DNA from: Microcella alkalica
GTDB taxonomy: Bacteria; Actinomycetota; Actinomycetes; Actinomycetales; Microbacteriaceae
Assembly (NCBI RefSeq): GCF_014595885.1
Contig: NZ_JABUKC010000001.1
Span: forward strand, 806,001-870,000
Direction: 5' to 3'
DNA: 64,000 bases
Made by a program: the position numbers and the translations under genes. This document shows positions 2,808 through 56,538 of the stretch, in pieces. Every line of letters begins with the position of its first letter. Within the stretch, counting starts at the first letter, position 1. A model generated the notes under the pieces. That model had not been told where the DNA came from, ran no database searches, and saw only the letters and a program-made list of their open reading frames with translations.

Positions 2808-3464
2808 CTAGAACAGGCTCGGCAGCAGGGTCGGGAACTGCGCGATGATCGCCACGACGATTCCCGCGTAGTTCGCCACGACGAGCACCCACGTGAACGG
2901 CAGCACGGCGCGGCCCACGCGCTGCGCCGCCCCGCCCTCGCCGGTGAGCCGGCCCGTCGCGAGCAGCCACGCGGCGAGCATCCAGAACATCGGGATCACC
3001 GCCGCCCAGACGAGCATGCACCACGGGCACAGCGCGCCGATCTCGTAGACGGCCTGCACGAACAGCCACGTGACGAACACCCACGCGGCCGACACCCCGG
3101 TCAGGAACAGCCACCAGAACCAGCGCGCGAACCTCGCACCGGCGAGCAGTGCGACCCCGACCGCCATCGGCGCGACGAAGCCCGCGACGCCCAGGAGGGG
3201 GTTCGGGAAGCCCAGCAGCGACGCCTGCCAGCTCGTCATGACGGTGCCGCATGAGATGAGCGGGTTGATGTCGCAGGTGATGACGTGGCTCGGGTCGATG
3301 AGCTTCGCGATGCGCTCGGTGATGAGCTCCATGGCGCCCCACCAGCCGAGCGCGCCCGTGACGAGCAGGAACACGCCCATCGCCCACGGGCGGCGCTCGC
3401 TCGGCGCCGCCTCGACGACGTGCGGGGAGTCGGGGCGCGTGGCGGTGGAGTCGGCGGCGGTCAC
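2808..3464 (-). CDS. Vitamin K epoxide reductase (VKOR) family membrane protein
   Basis: 218 residues from GTG 3464, with about five membrane segments. VKOR homologs in bacteria reoxidise a DsbA-like partner and pass electrons to menaquinone, supporting disulfide formation outside the membrane. The two cysteine pairs of the family are visible: a loop pair in TCDINPLISCG and the CPWC active pair. The GTG is preferred over ATG 3482 because AGGA lies 7 nt upstream of it and nothing comparable precedes the ATG; the same bases can also be read as a -10 (CAGGAT 3471-3476), making the transcript leaderless. A redox-type box lies upstream at 3500-3513. Confidence 0.88.
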   Translation of the reverse strand: MTAADSTATRPDSPHVVEAAPSERRPWAMGVFLLVTGALGWWGAMELITERIAKLIDPSHVITCDINPLISCGTVMTSWQASLLGFPNPLLGVAGFVAPMAVGVALLAGARFARWFWWLFLTGVSAAWVFVTWLFVQAVYEIGALCPWCMLVWAAVIPMFWMLAAWLLATGRLTGEGGAAQRVGRAVLPFTWVLVVANYAGIVVAIIAQFPTLLPSLF

Positions 3465-3499
3465 GCTTCGATCCTGACGCATGCGGCGCGCCCGCGCTG

Positions 3500-3513
3500 G
3501 GGTCGAAGGTCCC
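3500..3513 (-). promoter_or_regulatory. DevR/DosR-like box upstream of the VKOR gene
   Basis: Read toward the VKOR gene the bases are GGGACCTTCGACCC. The same word, in the same orientation and at nearly the same distance from a -10, precedes cydA and the PPOX gene. The gap to the proposed -10 (3471-3476) is 23 nt. The box also lies upstream of the rne promoter on the other strand. Confidence 0.5.
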
Positions 3514-38604: not shown

Positions 38605-38618
38605 GGGACCTTCGGCCC
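38605..38618 (+). promoter_or_regulatory. DevR/DosR-like box upstream of cydA
   Basis: GGGACCTTCGGCCC, 24 nt before the -10 TAGGGT. Centre is about 43 nt before the expected transcription start, where DevR-type activators usually bind. Same word and orientation as at 3500 and 56525. Confidence 0.6.
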
Positions 38619-38642
38619 GTGCCCGTCGCGCGACCGTCTTCC

Positions 38643-38648
38643 TAGGGT
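38643..38648 (+). promoter_or_regulatory. -10 TAGGGT of the cyd operon
   Basis: TAGGGT with no clear -35, as expected of an activator-dependent promoter. Start near 38655 leaves a leader of about 38 nt before GTG 38693. Confidence 0.5.
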
Positions 38649-38692: not shown

Positions 38693-40099
38693 GTGCTCGA
38701 ATGGCTCGACCCACTCGCCCTCGCCCGCTGGCAGTTCGGTCTCACGACCTTGTACCACTTCCTCTTCGTGCCGCTCACGATCGGCATGGCCCTGCTCGTG
38801 GCCATCCTGCAGACCGCGTGGGTGCGCACGGGCACGCTGAAGTACCTGCACCTGACGCGCCTGTTCGGCCGCATCTTCCTCATCAACTTCGCGATGGGCG
38901 TTGTGACGGGCATCGTGCAGGAGTTCCAGTTCGGCATGAACTGGAGCGACTACTCGCGCTTCGTCGGCGACGTCTTCGGCGCGCCGCTCGCGATGGAGGG
39001 TCTGCTCGCGTTCTTCCTCGAGGCGACTTTCATCGGCCTGTGGATCTTCGGCTGGGACAAGCTGCCGGCGAAGCTGCACCTGCTGTCGATCTGGATGGTG
39101 TCGATCTCCACCGCGATGTCGGCCTACTTCATCCTCGCCGCGAACGCGTTCATGCAGAACCCAGTCGGCTACCAGATCAACGAGATGCGCGGTCGGGCCG
39201 AGCTCACCGACATCGGGGCCGTGCTCACGAATCCGGTCGTGCTCGCGTCGTTCCCGCACACGATCTTCGCCTCGATCATGTTCGCCGCCGTCGTCATCGT
39301 CGCGGTCGCGGCGTATCACCTCTCGCGCGGCCAGTACGACGACACCATGCGCACGGCGCTGAAGTTCGGCGGCGTCGTGAACCTCATCGCCTTCGCCGGC
39401 GTCGCGATCAGCGGCGACCAGCTGAGCCTCGTCATGGTCGCGACCCAGCCCATGAAGATGGCCGCGGCCGAGGCCCTCTACGAGACGGCGGGCCCGGCGA
39501 GCTTCTCGCTCTTCTCGCTCGGCACGCCCGACGGCTCGAACGAGATCTTCTCGGTGCGCGTGCCGTACCTGCTGTCGCTGCTGTCGACCCACACCCTCAC
39601 GGGCGAGGTCGAGGGCATCAACGACCTGCAGGCGCAGTACGCCGAGCAGTGGGGCCCCGGCGACTACACGCCGATCATCTGGGTGACCTACTGGGCCTTC
39701 CGCTGGATGATCGGCCTCGGCGCCCTCGCCGCGCTCATCTCGGCCGTCGGCCTGTGGATCACCCGAGGTGGCCGCCGACCGGCCGGCTGGGCGTGGAAGG
39801 TCGCCATCTGGGCCGCGCCGCTGCCCATGATCGCGAGCCTCGTCGGCTGGATCTTCACCGAGATGGGCCGCCAGCCGTGGCTCGTCTTCGGCCTCATGAA
39901 GACGGAGGACGGCGTCTCACCGAACGTCACGGGCCTCGAGGTGCTCATCTCGCTCGTCGTGTTCACGATCGTCTACGGCGCGCTCGCCGTCGTCGACTTC
40001 CGCCTCATCAAGCGCGCCGCGATCGAGGGCCCGAAGGAGTGGGAGCAGCACTCCGACCCGGACGCCGTCGACCCGCAGAAGCTCGCCACGGTCTACTAG
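38693..40099 (+). CDS. cydA: Cytochrome bd ubiquinol/menaquinol oxidase subunit I
   Basis: 468 residues from GTG 38693, chosen because the family starts shortly before LDLARWQFG (here DPLALARWQFGLTTLYHF); a TTG at 38648 lies inside the -10. Heme ligands: His in LYHFLFVPLTIG and the Glu-rich helix AMEGLLAFFLEATF; the second His-rich region and QMKMAAAEA-like quinol site (QPMKMAAAEALYE) are intact. The Q-loop is short. With CydB it reduces oxygen with high affinity at the membrane. The upstream box suggests induction at low oxygen. Confidence 0.95.
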   Translation: MLEWLDPLALARWQFGLTTLYHFLFVPLTIGMALLVAILQTAWVRTGTLKYLHLTRLFGRIFLINFAMGVVTGIVQEFQFGMNWSDYSRFVGDVFGAPLAMEGLLAFFLEATFIGLWIFGWDKLPAKLHLLSIWMVSISTAMSAYFILAANAFMQNPVGYQINEMRGRAELTDIGAVLTNPVVLASFPHTIFASIMFAAVVIVAVAAYHLSRGQYDDTMRTALKFGGVVNLIAFAGVAISGDQLSLVMVATQPMKMAAAEALYETAGPASFSLFSLGTPDGSNEIFSVRVPYLLSLLSTHTLTGEVEGINDLQAQYAEQWGPGDYTPIIWVTYWAFRWMIGLGALAALISAVGLWITRGGRRPAGWAWKVAIWAAPLPMIASLVGWIFTEMGRQPWLVFGLMKTEDGVSPNVTGLEVLISLVVFTIVYGALAVVDFRLIKRAAIEGPKEWEQHSDPDAVDPQKLATVY

Positions 40100-40108
40100 G
40101 AGCCCCTC

Positions 40109-41128
40109 ATGGATCTCGCATTCCTCTGGTTCGTCATCGTCGGGTTCTTCTTCGTCGGCTACTTCGTGCTCGACGGCTTCGACTTCGGCGTGGGCATGTC
40201 GCTGCCCTTCCTCGGCAAGGACGACACCGACCGCCGGCAGATCATCAACACGATCGGCCCGGTCTGGGATCTCAACGAGACCTGGCTCATCGTCGCCGGC
40301 GCCGCGCTGTTCGCGGCCTTCCCGTACTGGTACGCCACGCTGTTCAGCGGGTTCTACCTCGCGCTGCTGCTGATCCTCGTGGCGCTCATCCTGCGCGGCG
40401 TCTCGTTCGAGTACCGCCATCAGGGCCGCAGCCCGCAGTGGGCGAAGCGCTTCGACCTCATGATCGTCGTCGGCTCGGCCGTACCGGCGTTCCTGTGGGG
40501 TGTCGCCTTCGCCAACATCGTGCAGGGCACGCCGATCGACGAGGCCGGCAACTACACCGGCACGCTGTTCACGCTGCTGAACCCGTACGGCATCCTCGGC
40601 GGGCTCGCGACGCTGCTGCTGTTCTTCACGCACGGCGTGCAGTTCGTCGCGCTCAAGACCGACGGCGAGCTGCGTGAGCGCGCCCGCGCCCTCGCCGGCC
40701 GCTCGGGCATCGTCACGATCGTGGTCGCCGCGGCGTTCCTGGTCTGGACGGTCGTCGCCCACCTCGGGGTCGACCACGCGCCGCTCATCGCCGCCTTCGC
40801 CGCCGCCGCCGCGGTCGCCCTCATCGGTGCGACGGTCGCCAACCGGGTCGGGCGCGAGGGCGTCGCCTTCACCCTCTCGGCCGTCACGACGCTCTTCGCG
40901 GTCGCGACGATCCTCGCGGCCCTGTTCCCGAACGTCATGCCCTCGACGATCGACCCCGCGTTCAGCCTCACGATCGAGAACGCGTCGAGCTCGCAGTACA
41001 CCCTCGAGGTCATGACGTGGGTGGCGGTGTTCATGATCCCGCTCGTGCTGCTCTATCAGGGCTGGACGTACTGGGTCTTCCGCAAGCGGGTCACGCGCGC
41101 CTCGATCCCGGTGGGGGCGGCGCACTGA
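40109..41128 (+). CDS. cydB: Cytochrome bd oxidase subunit II
   Basis: 339 residues, about nine membrane segments. Starts MDLAFLWFVIVGFFFVGYFVLDGFDFGVGM, the family N-terminus with the conserved Asp; GPVWDLNETWLIVAGAALFAAFP and the ILRGVSFEYR motif follow. AGGAG lies 7-8 nt before ATG 40109. Nine bases after cydA. It packs against CydA to complete the oxidase. Confidence 0.96.
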   Translation: MDLAFLWFVIVGFFFVGYFVLDGFDFGVGMSLPFLGKDDTDRRQIINTIGPVWDLNETWLIVAGAALFAAFPYWYATLFSGFYLALLLILVALILRGVSFEYRHQGRSPQWAKRFDLMIVVGSAVPAFLWGVAFANIVQGTPIDEAGNYTGTLFTLLNPYGILGGLATLLLFFTHGVQFVALKTDGELRERARALAGRSGIVTIVVAAAFLVWTVVAHLGVDHAPLIAAFAAAAAVALIGATVANRVGREGVAFTLSAVTTLFAVATILAALFPNVMPSTIDPAFSLTIENASSSQYTLEVMTWVAVFMIPLVLLYQGWTYWVFRKRVTRASIPVGAAH

Positions 41129-42807
41129 AGCCCCTCGACCCGCGCCTGCTGCGCACCGCGTCGGCCGCGAGATCCCTGCTCGCGGTCGGCGCGGCCGTCG
41201 CCGCCCTGCACGTCGCCAGCATCATCGCCTTCTGCTGGTTCGCCGCGCAGAGCATCGCGCGCGTCATCGAGGGCGCGCCGCTGAGCGAGGCGGGGATGCT
41301 CGTGGCGGCGACCGCCGCATCCGTCGTCGTGCGATCGCTCACCCAGGCCGCGCTCGACGCGCTCGCCGCCCGCGGCGCCGCCCGGGTGAAGAGCCAGCTG
41401 CGCCGGCGCGTCATCGAGGCGGTCGACCGCGGTGGCTCGGCGGCGCTCGGGCAGCGGTCGAGCGCGGGCATCGCGACGCTCGTCGGGCAGGGGCTCGACG
41501 CCCTCGACGGCTACGTCGGGCAGTACCTGCCGCAGCTGATCCTCACGGCGGTCGCCACGCCGCTCGTCGTCGCCGCGCTGCTGCTGAGCGACCTCGCCAC
41601 GGGCATCGCCGTCATCGTGACCCTGCCGCTGATCCCGCTGTTCATGGTGCTCATCGGCTGGGCGACGCAGGCGATGCAGCGCTCGCAGTGGCAGGCGCTG
41701 CAGCGGCTCTCGCAGGGCTTCCTCGAGGTCGTGCAGGGCCTGTCGACCCTGACGATCTTCGGCCGGCAGCACCGGCAGTCGGCCCGCATCGAGCGCGTCA
41801 CCGACGACTATCGCGTGCGCACGATGCGCGTGCTGCGGGTGTCGTTCCTGTCGAGCTTCGCGCTCGAGCTCGCCGCGAGCCTGTCGGTCGCGGTCGTCGC
41901 CGTCTCGGTGGGCGTGCGCCTCATCGAGGGCTCGATCCCGTTCGCGCTCGGCCTGTTCGTGCTCATCCTGGCCCCTGAGGCGTACCTGCCGCTGCGCATG
42001 GTCGGTGCTCGCTTCCACGCCGCCGCCGACGGGCTCGCGGCCGCCGAGGAGGTGCTCGACCTGCTGCACGAGGCGGATGCCCGCCCCGACGCCGCCGCGC
42101 CCGTCGCGCCCGCGGCGGCCCGGCCCGGCGAGGCGCACGGCGTCGCCCTCGCGCTCAAGGGCGTGAGCGTCGACCGCGGCGGCGTGCGCGTCGTCGACGG
42201 GCTCGACGCCGCGTGGCGGCGCGGCACGGTCGTCGCGGTGACCGGCTCGAGCGGCACCGGCAAGTCGTCGCTGCTCGCGGCGATCCTCGGCTTCGCGCCG
42301 CACGGCGGCCGCGTGCTGATCGACGGCGTCGCGCTGCCGCCGGATCAGCGACCGGCGCGGCTGGCCTGGGCGGGGCAGCGTCCCGAGCTGACCGCCGGGC
42401 CGCTCGTCGACGTCGTCGCTCTCGGGGAGGCCACGCCCGATGCGGCGCTCGCCGCGCGCGCCCTCGCCCTCGCGGGCGCGATCGACGTGCCCGTCGCGAC
42501 GGTGCTCGGCCCCGCGGGCGCCGGACTCTCCGGCGGCCAGGCGCAGCGCGTCGCGATCGCGCGAGCCCTCTACCGGGCGCTCGCGCATGACCTCGACGTC
42601 GTGCTGCTCGACGAGCCCACGTCGGCGCTCGACGTCGACGCCGAGCGGCGGGTCGTCGACGGCCTGCGCGCGATGGCCGACGCGGGGCGGCTCGTCGTGG
42701 TCGTCACCCACCGACCCGCCGTCGTGGAGGCGGCCGACGAGGTGCTCGACCTGGCCGCGCATCGTGCGGGCGCCCGGGCGACACTGGAGGAGGTGCGGAG
42801 CCGATGA
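41125..42807 (+). CDS. cydD: CydD subunit of the heterodimeric CydDC ABC exporter (probable CTG start)
   Basis: 560 residues if started at CTG 41125. Six membrane segments, then an ATPase domain with Walker A GSSGTGKSS, signature LSGGQAQR and Walker B VVLLDEP. CydDC exports thiols or heme-related compounds needed to build cytochrome bd. Homologs begin MKPLDPRLLR; here the codon at the Met position is CTG, giving LKPLDPRLLR. The only standard in-frame start nearby, GTG 41017, would add 36 residues overlapping cydB by 112 bases. CTGA would overlap the cydB stop just as ATGA does at the other junctions. Confidence 0.9.
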   Translation: MKPLDPRLLRTASAARSLLAVGAAVAALHVASIIAFCWFAAQSIARVIEGAPLSEAGMLVAATAASVVVRSLTQAALDALAARGAARVKSQLRRRVIEAVDRGGSAALGQRSSAGIATLVGQGLDALDGYVGQYLPQLILTAVATPLVVAALLLSDLATGIAVIVTLPLIPLFMVLIGWATQAMQRSQWQALQRLSQGFLEVVQGLSTLTIFGRQHRQSARIERVTDDYRVRTMRVLRVSFLSSFALELAASLSVAVVAVSVGVRLIEGSIPFALGLFVLILAPEAYLPLRMVGARFHAAADGLAAAEEVLDLLHEADARPDAAAPVAPAAARPGEAHGVALALKGVSVDRGGVRVVDGLDAAWRRGTVVAVTGSSGTGKSSLLAAILGFAPHGGRVLIDGVALPPDQRPARLAWAGQRPELTAGPLVDVVALGEATPDAALAARALALAGAIDVPVATVLGPAGAGLSGGQAQRVAIARALYRALAHDLDVVLLDEPTSALDVDAERRVVDGLRAMADAGRLVVVVTHRPAVVEAADEVLDLAAHRAGARATLEEVRSR

Positions 42808-44492
42808 CCGCGACATCGCAGCCCGCCCCGCCCGCCGCCGCGAGCATCCGCCCCGTGCTGCGCGCCGCGCAGCCGCCGCTGCGGGCCGCCGCCCCTGCCC
42901 TCCTGCTCGGCGCCCTCGCCGCCGGGTCGTCGGTCGCGCTGCTCGCGACCGCCTCCTGGCTCATCGCCCGCGCCGCCGAGCAGCCGCCGATCCTCTTCCT
43001 CGGCATGTCGATCGTCGGCGTGCGCGCCTTCGCAATCGGTCGGGCCGTCTTCCGCTACCTCGAGCGCGTCGTTGGCCACGACGCGGCCTTCCGCGCGCTC
43101 GCGGGTCTGCGCGTCAGCGTCTTCCGCCGGCTGCTGCCGGTCGCGCCGGACGGGTTGCGCGGCACGCGCTCCGGCGACGTGCTGACGACCCTCGTGCGCG
43201 ACGTCGACACCCTGCAGGATCTGCCGCTGCGGGTCGTGCAGCCGCTCGTGAGCGCGGCGATCGTCGCCGGCCTCGCCGTCGTCGGCGTCGCCTGGCTGTC
43301 GCCCGTCGCCGCGGCCGTGCTGCTCGTCGGCCTCATCGCGACGACCGCCGCGGCGACCGCCGTGCTGTCGGCGCTCAGTCGCGACGCGGAGCGCCGCATC
43401 GCGCCCCTGCGCGCGGAGCTCGCCGACGCGGTGCTGGAGTACCTCGCCCGGTGGGAGACGCTGCGGGCCTTCGGGGCCGACGCCGCCCGCCGAGAGCGCG
43501 TGCTCGACCTCGACGCACGCCTGCGGCGCGCGCAATCGCGGCAGTCGGCCGCGCAGGGCTCCGTCGCCGCCCTCGTCACGCTGGGCGGCGGGGGGATGCT
43601 CGTCGCGACGTTGCTCGTCGTGCAGCCCGAGCTCGCCGCGGGCGCCCTCACGGGCCCCGAACTTGCCCTGCTCGTGCTCGTGCCGCTCGCGATCGTCGAG
43701 GTCGTCGGCGCTCTGCCCGCCGCGCTCGGCGCCTGGTGGCGCGTGCGCGCGAGCGCCGAGCGGGTGGCCGACGTCGTGCCCGAGTCGGTGCCGGTGGAGA
43801 TCCCCGTCGCGCCGCAGCAGCCGGTGTCGATCGAGGGGCTCGAGCCGAGCATCCGCCTGCGGGGTGTGTCGGCGCGCTGGCCGGGAGCCGCGCGCCCGGC
43901 CCTCGCACCGCTCGACCTCGACCTGCGGCCCGGCGACCGCGTCGTGCTGCACGGGCCGAGCGGCGCCGGCAAGACGACGCTCGCGCACGTGCTCGTGCGG
44001 TTCCTCGAGCACGAGGGGCGCTACGAGCTCGGCGGCGTCGACGTGCGCCGACTGCACCCCGACGATGTGCGGCGGCGCGTGGTGCTGCTCGAGCAGCAGC
44101 CGCACCTGTTCGACGAGTCGATCCGGCAGAACCTGCTGTTCGCGCGCGACACGGCGACCGACGCCGAGCTGCTCGCGGTGCTCGAGCGCGTCGGGCTCGC
44201 CGAGTGGGTCGCCGAGCGCGGCGGGCTCGACGCGCCCGTCGGCGAGCGCGGCCGCCTCGTGTCGGGCGGGCAGGCGCAGCGCCTCGCGCTCGCGCGCGGG
44301 CTGCTGTGCGAGGCGCCCGTGCTCGTGCTCGACGAGCCGACCGCGAACGTCGACCCCGAGCGCGCCGAGGCCGTGCTCGAGCAGCTGCTCGGCGCGGCCA
44401 TCGGCGACGACCGCGCGGTGCTCGTCATCTCGCACGCGCCCGTGCCCTCGCACCTGGTGACGCGACGCGTGCGCCTCGAGCCCGCCCCCTAG
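42804..44492 (+). CDS. cydC: CydC subunit of the CydDC ABC exporter
   Basis: 562 residues, ATG overlapping the cydD stop. Membrane domain with the family motifs LLATASWLIARAAEQPPILFLGMSIVGVRAFAIGRAVFRYLERVVGHDAAF and RDVDTLQDLPLRVVQP; ATPase domain with GPSGAGKTT, VSGGQAQR and VLVLDEP. It pairs with CydD. The TAG stop is also the first three bases of the TAGACT -10 for aspA. Confidence 0.95.
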   Translation: MTATSQPAPPAAASIRPVLRAAQPPLRAAAPALLLGALAAGSSVALLATASWLIARAAEQPPILFLGMSIVGVRAFAIGRAVFRYLERVVGHDAAFRALAGLRVSVFRRLLPVAPDGLRGTRSGDVLTTLVRDVDTLQDLPLRVVQPLVSAAIVAGLAVVGVAWLSPVAAAVLLVGLIATTAAATAVLSALSRDAERRIAPLRAELADAVLEYLARWETLRAFGADAARRERVLDLDARLRRAQSRQSAAQGSVAALVTLGGGGMLVATLLVVQPELAAGALTGPELALLVLVPLAIVEVVGALPAALGAWWRVRASAERVADVVPESVPVEIPVAPQQPVSIEGLEPSIRLRGVSARWPGAARPALAPLDLDLRPGDRVVLHGPSGAGKTTLAHVLVRFLEHEGRYELGGVDVRRLHPDDVRRRVVLLEQQPHLFDESIRQNLLFARDTATDAELLAVLERVGLAEWVAERGGLDAPVGERGRLVSGGQAQRLALARGLLCEAPVLVLDEPTANVDPERAEAVLEQLLGAAIGDDRAVLVISHAPVPSHLVTRRVRLEPAP

Positions 44493-56046: not shown

Positions 56047-56469
56047 TCAGTAACGCTCGGGCTCGGGGGCGCGCTCGAAGCGGCGCCCGGTCAGCTCGAC
56101 GGGGCGGATGCGCACCCACCGGTACTTCAGCGTCGGAACCCACGGCTGCAGCGGCAGCCGGTCGGCCGCGTCGATCTCGCTCTGCAGCTCCACGCGCTCG
56201 GCGACGCCCTTCACGACGACGCTCCACGCCTCGCGCTCGCTCGCGCCGTCGATCTCGAAGGCGACGCGATCGTTGATGGAGAGCTCGAGCAGCTTGGTGC
56301 CCGGCGCGGTGCGGAAGTAGAGCATCCGGTCGTCGACCGCGTAGTTGACGGGGAAGATGTCGACGGTGCCGGCGGCGGTGACGGCGAGGCGGCCCAGGGA
56401 GTGGTCGGCGAGCACGCGCCAGCACTCGTCGACGCTGAGTTCGGTGACGGGGCCGAGTCCGATGGTCAT
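56047..56469 (-). CDS. Pyridoxamine 5'-phosphate oxidase (PPOX) family protein
   Basis: 140 residues. The FMN-binding split-barrel pattern is visible: LSVDECWRVLADHSLGRLAVTAAGTVDIFPVNYAVDDRMLYFRTAPGTKLLELSINDRVAFEIDG then WSVVVKGVAERV. This short branch binds flavin, F420 or heme and is common in low-oxygen and stress regulons of actinobacteria. AAAGGAG lies before the ATG. A box shared with cydA is upstream at 56525. Confidence 0.88.
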   Translation of the reverse strand: MTIGLGPVTELSVDECWRVLADHSLGRLAVTAAGTVDIFPVNYAVDDRMLYFRTAPGTKLLELSINDRVAFEIDGASEREAWSVVVKGVAERVELQSEIDAADRLPLQPWVPTLKYRWVRIRPVELTGRRFERAPEPERY

Positions 56470-56494: not shown

Positions 56495-56500
56495 ATTGCA
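56495..56500 (-). promoter_or_regulatory. -10 TGCAAT of the PPOX gene
   Basis: TGCAAT on the minus strand, 24 nt downstream of the regulatory box. Start near 56488, leader of about 20 nt containing AAAGGAG. Confidence 0.5.
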
Positions 56501-56524: not shown

Positions 56525-56538
56525 GGGCCGAAGGTCCT
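56525..56538 (-). promoter_or_regulatory. DevR/DosR-like box upstream of the PPOX gene
   Basis: Read toward the gene: AGGACCTTCGGCCC, differing from the cydA box by one base. It sits inside a larger palindrome with arms GTCAGG (56521-56526) and CCTGAC (56536-56541). Confidence 0.6.

Follow-up and report, generated by a model that had tools for sequence, protein, structure and literature searches.

Boxes, predicted promoters and genes

The window, meaning the whole 64-kb stretch of the Microcella alkalica genome analysed here, carries a 14-bp box before three genes, encoding cytochrome bd oxidase subunit I (cydA), a VKOR-family protein and a Pyridoxamine 5'-phosphate oxidase-like (PPOX) protein, with a putative -10 element following each box:

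38605..38618, plus strand: box GGGACCTTCGGCCC before cydA, the same 14 letters in three congeners
38643..38648, plus strand: putative -10 element TAGGGT of cydA; TAGGGT, TACGCT or TAGGCT at equal offset in the three congeners
38693..40099, plus strand: cydA, cytochrome bd oxidase subunit I (PF01654, E 3.9e-160)
40109..41128, plus strand: cydB (TIGR00203, above cut-off)
41296..42807, plus strand: cydD (TIGR02857, above cut-off)
42804..44492, plus strand: cydC (TIGR02868, above cut-off)
3500..3513, minus strand: box GGGACCTTCGACCC before the VKOR gene, which two of the three congeners also have, altered in one of them
3471..3476, minus strand: putative -10 element CAGGAT of VKOR, predicted from sequence
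2808..3464, minus strand: VKOR-family gene (PF07884, E 1.6e-36)
56525..56538, minus strand: box AGGACCTTCGGCCC before the PPOX gene; three congeners have boxed PPOX-like genes
56495..56500, minus strand: putative -10 element TGCAAT of PPOX, its second base deviating from NANNNT
56047..56469, minus strand: PPOX gene (PF12900, E 1.1e-31)

The coordinates bear out the original observation that the three boxes face their genes at nearly constant distances from the -10 element, this distance being 24 nt for cydA (box to TAGGGT), 24 nt for PPOX (box to TGCAAT) and 23 nt for VKOR (box to CAGGAT). The gene starts follow the boxes by 74 nt (the GTG of cydA), 55 nt (PPOX) and 35 nt (VKOR), and the VKOR transcript would, from the predicted elements, start at the GTG start codon itself. 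The cydBDC genes are presumed to lie on the same transcript as cydA. A reading of the box as a terminator stem was set aside by inspection, -10 elements rather than T runs following the boxes.

Frequency and position of the word

The word is not enriched in the window when up to three mismatches are allowed (21 places found against 17.9 expected), and the 2.49-Mb assembly holds 9 places at no more than one mismatch against 3 for the reversed word, with no excess at up to two mismatches (51 against 53 for the reversed control). The counts of three congeners at up to one mismatch show no excess either, with 10, 3 and 5 for the word and 8, 5 and 4 for its reverse, although exact matches to the degenerate word GGGACYTTNGNCCC do, numbering 7, 3 and 3 compared with 0, 0 and 1 when reversed. 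Because of the null results at two mismatches in the genome and at one mismatch in the congeners, the count by itself is weak evidence, and the case rests on the position and spacing of the boxes, not on their number. The earlier statement that chance hardly explains the shared word holds for the spacing and the place before genes, which are non-random, but not for the word count in the window, which lies at expectation. Nor is the redox likeness of the three genes independent evidence, since the genes had been picked for carrying the word.

The outcome named beforehand as speaking against a regulatory site, a word equally common inside genes or at random distance from -10 elements, is not what the genome shows, the offset being fixed and seven of the nine places with at most one mismatch preceding a co-directional gene (at 27–74 nt, with one at 120 nt if the later start is taken); of the other two, one lies within a permease gene, where a site is seen also in congener G074, and no called gene follows the second. 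The boxed genes besides cydA, VKOR and PPOX are those for ribose-5-phosphate isomerase B (rpiB, box 27 nt before), a GerMN/Gmad2 lipoprotein (preferred ATG at 66 nt, start chosen by script at 120 nt) and a VTT-domain protein (68 nt), the last followed by a PfkB-family kinase gene, together with a short flavodoxin-like frame (48 aa, spanning 39 of 143 family positions) that has an exact box 35 nt before it (L003:1319-1514). Words with two or three mismatches were dropped as sites, showing no excess over control and lying mostly inside genes. Of the 42 two-mismatch places in the genome 41 were read, and 35 of them are in genes; four of the 41 precede genes, and two of these four have a -10 element at 23 or 24 and are held as candidate targets. 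One candidate is a beta-CASP metallo-beta-lactamase RNase-like gene (L033:59-1429, minus strand) with GGGACTTTCGCCCC 71 nt upstream and a -10 element at 23, the other a short-chain dehydrogenase gene (L026) with a two-mismatch box and a -10 element at 23 or 24.

Promoter geometry

With the -10 hexamer placed at -12 to -7, a -10 element 23–24 nt past the box puts the box centre at about -42.5 to -43.5, and arithmetic on the predicted elements gives -43.5 for cydA, -43.5 for PPOX and -42.5 for VKOR, in keeping with the expected position near -42.5. The same offset recurs beyond the window. Among the four congeners, 21 upstream regions are boxed once in-gene and gene-less box places are set aside, and NANNNT starts at offset 23 in eight of them and at 24 in six, other offsets accounting for 0–2 each, and in other genera NANNNT stands at 23 or 24 in 21 of 30 cydA and PPOX sites (23 genomes), shuffling of the spacers of the same 30 sites giving a mean of 1.8 and a maximum of 7 in 5000 shuffles. 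The surroundings of 80 named DevR genes hold 49 boxes (reversed control, 0), for which the -10 peaks lie at 23–24 (17) and 34–35 (12), two peaks that suggest one helix face. Across the four cydA promoters, the invariant positions number 14 of 14 in the box, 6 in the next 22 and 6 in the last 8; because the box served as the search key, conservation of the spacer and the -10 element alone is free of selection bias. The rpiB promoter differs, its -10 element TAGAAT lying at offset 14, ten base pairs nearer, in both boxed species (L007:1501-1542 and L237), and its predicted transcript start would land at the ATG. A palindromic box overlapping the -35 of target promoters, a trait of DevR/OsdR-type regulons, is found here as judged from predicted -10 elements and start points.

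A DevS–DevR pair on contig 4

The binder had been expected to lie outside the window, and none of the ten GerE matches of the genome falls within it, a DevS–DevR operon being encoded on contig 4, a contig other than that of cydA and PPOX. The DevR-like regulator (217 residues, L020:4756-5409) has DevR as its best relative of solved structure (3c3w, E 4.6e-62) and alone among the ten GerE loci carries the KTVKN recognition helix; its closest named relative among the matches listed is that of Microcella putealis at 77% identity, with one congener at equal level. Membership in MadR was rejected, the NF047785 score of 157.9 bits lying below the cut-off of 300. Directly before devR stands the gene of a DevS-like kinase (516 residues, L020:3209-4759) with GAF, HisKA_3 and HATPase_c domains, so that a KTVKN response regulator and an adjoining DevS/DosT-type kinase, both traits of DevR/OsdR-type regulons, are present together. 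A TerC-family gene (L020:2405-3205) ends 3 nt before devS, and another TerC-like gene, in congener G074 (L236), starts 41 nt after a one-mismatch box.

The GAF domain of the kinase is nearest to DosT (2vzw, E 6e-42), followed by DevS entries (near 1e-38). It keeps HHPPM, as DosT does, the DevS entries having YHPPM, and like DosT it has Gly at a site occupied by Glu in 2w3d and 4ynr, by Gly in 2y8h and by Ala in 2y79, the latter two presumably being mutant structures. The His of the HHPPM motif is taken here to bind heme, and Glu at the GAF site reportedly restricts oxygen access in DosS; on these roles the kinase is read as DosT-like, and by analogy it would carry heme.

A box upstream of the DevR homolog, proposed as a check, is missing at up to two mismatches in the 8.5 kb of L020 read around the operon, and autoregulation of devSR was dropped for this reason; such a box is common in DevR/OsdR-type regulons, not defining.

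Box and regulator across the Microbacteriaceae

The suggestion that the box is of DevR/DosR type is supported by the DevR homolog of the genome and by the co-occurrence of regulator and box throughout the family. Among 199 family genomes, a DevR match reaches E 1e-40 in 78, and in 69 of these it lies below 1e-55 and is termed strong. Counted in the same 199 genomes against the reversed word, per genome and with no tree correction, GGGACYTTNGNCCC boxes average 3.14 in the 69 genomes with strong DevR (control 0.96), 1.33 in the nine with intermediate DevR (control 0.78) and 0.27 in the 121 without DevR (control 0.98). In the 22 genera that are mixed in this respect, the members with DevR have more boxes in 18, fewer in one and equal numbers in three (sign test, 8e-5). 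There are exceptions on both sides: the box is missing from 9 of the 69 strong-DevR genomes, 29 of the 121 genomes lacking strong DevR carry one or more (two in four of them), and one intermediate genome has eight. In these 121 genomes the box occurs 33 times and the reversed control 119 times, a deficit that looks like avoidance or a compositional bias against the word. The KTVKN helix, for its part, is found in 29 of 30 family DevR loci and in none of 30 regulator loci taken from six genomes that lack strong DevR, as well as in 77 of the 80 named DevR loci, for which the search had been seeded partly with the KTVKN motif.

Boxed genes in relatives

Upstream regions of cydA (300 nt) were surveyed in 90 cases, 30 search loci and 60 fetched, which make up part of the cydA places in 152 genomes and leave the weakest places outside. 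Of the 59 regions from strong-DevR genomes, 22 have a box with at most one mismatch on either strand, three of the 22 reversed, and the other 37 are unboxed; such a box is absent from both intermediate and all 29 DevR-less regions, and the reversed control from all 90. Where two cydA copies were read, in four genomes, one copy is boxed in three (G042, G090 and G155) and neither in the fourth (G026). For PPOX, with the 30 best places in 98 genomes considered, the box is found in 12 of 24 regions with strong DevR, 1 of 3 intermediate and 0 of 3 without (control 0). The VKOR site is weaker than the cydA and PPOX sites: among 30 loci from 196 genomes it is boxed in 3 of 13 strong-DevR regions, all of the same genus as M. 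alkalica, in 0 of 3 intermediate regions and in 3 of 14 DevR-less regions, all of genus g36 (control 0). Upstream of VKOR in g36 (L174, L179 and L187), GGG(A/G)CCTTCGCCCC stands at an equal place and NANNNT at 23–24 is absent; the g36 genomes are without strong DevR, and the KTVKN helix is absent from their regulator loci read.

Within the genus, the four species have the box before cydA in four, a PPOX-like gene in four, VKOR in three, the VTT–PfkB pair in three, rpiB in two and the lipoprotein gene in two, the boxed PPOX-like gene of G137 being a distant paralogue (42% identity). In relatives the presumed targets can also lie close to the regulator: of the 55 strong-DevR genomes for which a cydA was listed, 16 have it no more than 15 kb from devR, and PPOX lies within that distance in 32 of 53 genomes. 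The recurrent devR–cydA neighbourhood would point to a pairing that is old, or has been selected repeatedly, in Microbacteriaceae. Universal stress protein and nitroreductase genes, usual as targets in the family of DevR/OsdR-type regulons and held here to be non-defining, do not belong to the set, the M. alkalica genome having no match to PF00582 or PF00881 at E 0.001; they were ruled out as targets on this ground, and the proposed checks for box enrichment upstream of such genes have no object in this genome.

Proposed mechanism and alternatives

Judged from the sequences, the 14-bp word is very probably the site of the organism's own DevR/OsdR-type regulator, paired with the adjoining DevS/DosT-like kinase of contig 4 and serving a small regulon that includes cydA. 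At low oxygen the kinase would phosphorylate DevR, which would then bind the near-palindrome about 43 bp upstream of the start point, over the -35 region, and aid RNA polymerase at the -10 element lying 23–24 nt past the box. The predicted targets are cydA with cydBDC, the PPOX-like gene, VKOR, the VTT-domain protein with the PfkB-family kinase, ribose-phosphate isomerase B and the GerMN/Gmad2 lipoprotein, and the outcome at low oxygen would probably be more cytochrome bd and exporter along with redox and sugar-phosphate enzymes. Directly observed are the boxes with their spacing and the two-component pair, as well as the joint occurrence of box and regulator across genomes and, in relatives, the proximity of devR to cydA and PPOX. 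Heme, phosphorylation, oxygen as the signal, DNA binding and activation rather than repression are carried over from the family and would apply here by analogy.

It is very unlikely that another LuxR/NarL-type regulator of the genome binds the word instead of DevR; nine further GerE loci are available, one of them about 0.9 kb from an exact box on contig 2, but the KTVKN helix is absent from all nine, and box number tracks DevR across genera. The fixed distance to the -10 element would also suit a constitutive upstream promoter element with no dedicated regulator, and the boxed VKOR of the DevR-less genus g36 points the same way; this, too, is highly improbable given that DevR-less genomes have fewer boxes than the reversed control and that none of the 29 DevR-less cydA regions is boxed. 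Coincidence in GC-rich sequence draws on the missing excess in the window (up to three mismatches), the genome (up to two) and the congeners (up to one), yet it hardly deserves credence against boxes of which seven in nine precede genes, which keep their spacing in other genera and whose number is tied to DevR.

That cydA and PPOX are true DevR targets and the VKOR box alone is a chance or unrelated likeness is unlikely; in its favour, VKOR is boxed in strong-DevR regions only within the genus itself (3 of 13), the three other boxed VKOR regions coming from DevR-less genomes, and against it, the box keeps its offset of 23 to the -10 element in three species of the genus.

Relation to known systems and implications

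OsdR/OsdK of Streptomyces coelicolor likewise comprises a DevR-family regulator and a kinase and acts through a palindromic box, and in the available text of the source OsdR recognises a related palindrome with the printed consensus AGGGCCGATCGGCCCT, the exact 14-mer lying inside the predicted SCO5979 site (PMC5069765). The PPOX gene SCO0214 is among the predicted targets there, as a PPOX gene is boxed here, whereas the universal stress proteins and nitroreductase also given as OsdR/OsdK targets are absent from the M. alkalica genome (same available text, PMC5069765); neither 'cytochrome' nor 'cydA' occurs in the main text of that paper (PMC5069765). The DevR/DosR system of mycobacteria has a like regulator and, by sequence, a like kinase, together with a start-proximal site over the -35, and activation at mycobacterial DevR promoters proceeds from the start-proximal site overlapping the -35, according to the portion available (PMC3029386). 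Regulator, box and geometry are of the DevR kind, and the target set is a variant. In Mycobacterium smegmatis, as far as the accessible part of the report goes, loss of devR leaves cydA inducible (data not shown in that paper), and cydAB lies outside the DevR regulon and under other regulators, in contrast to the box that precedes cydA here (PMC7739888). The sequences make it seem that cytochrome bd is under DevR in M. alkalica, unlike in that mycobacterium. 'cyd' is absent from the main text of a paper on M. abscessus DosRS (PMC10034137), and cytochrome bd and dos proteins are stated, in the text available, both to increase with CO (PMC8125079). The DevR studies found in the literature search concern mycobacteria and Streptomyces, and in the open literature, covered in part and with subscription papers outside, no report was found that places cytochrome bd under DevR in Microbacteriaceae.

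It is somewhat probable that DevSR has been rewired in Microbacteriaceae, the usual dormancy targets being gone here and the pair directly driving cytochrome bd, a high-affinity oxidase of low-oxygen respiration, and the CydDC exporter. If this is true, oxygen sensing would be coupled to a terminal oxidase in a single step. A compact DevR regulon with a terminal oxidase as its main target would reveal what role the switch has when the usual dormancy genes are missing, and a handful of genes would make both oxygen sensing and respiratory rewiring testable in an environmental bacterium.
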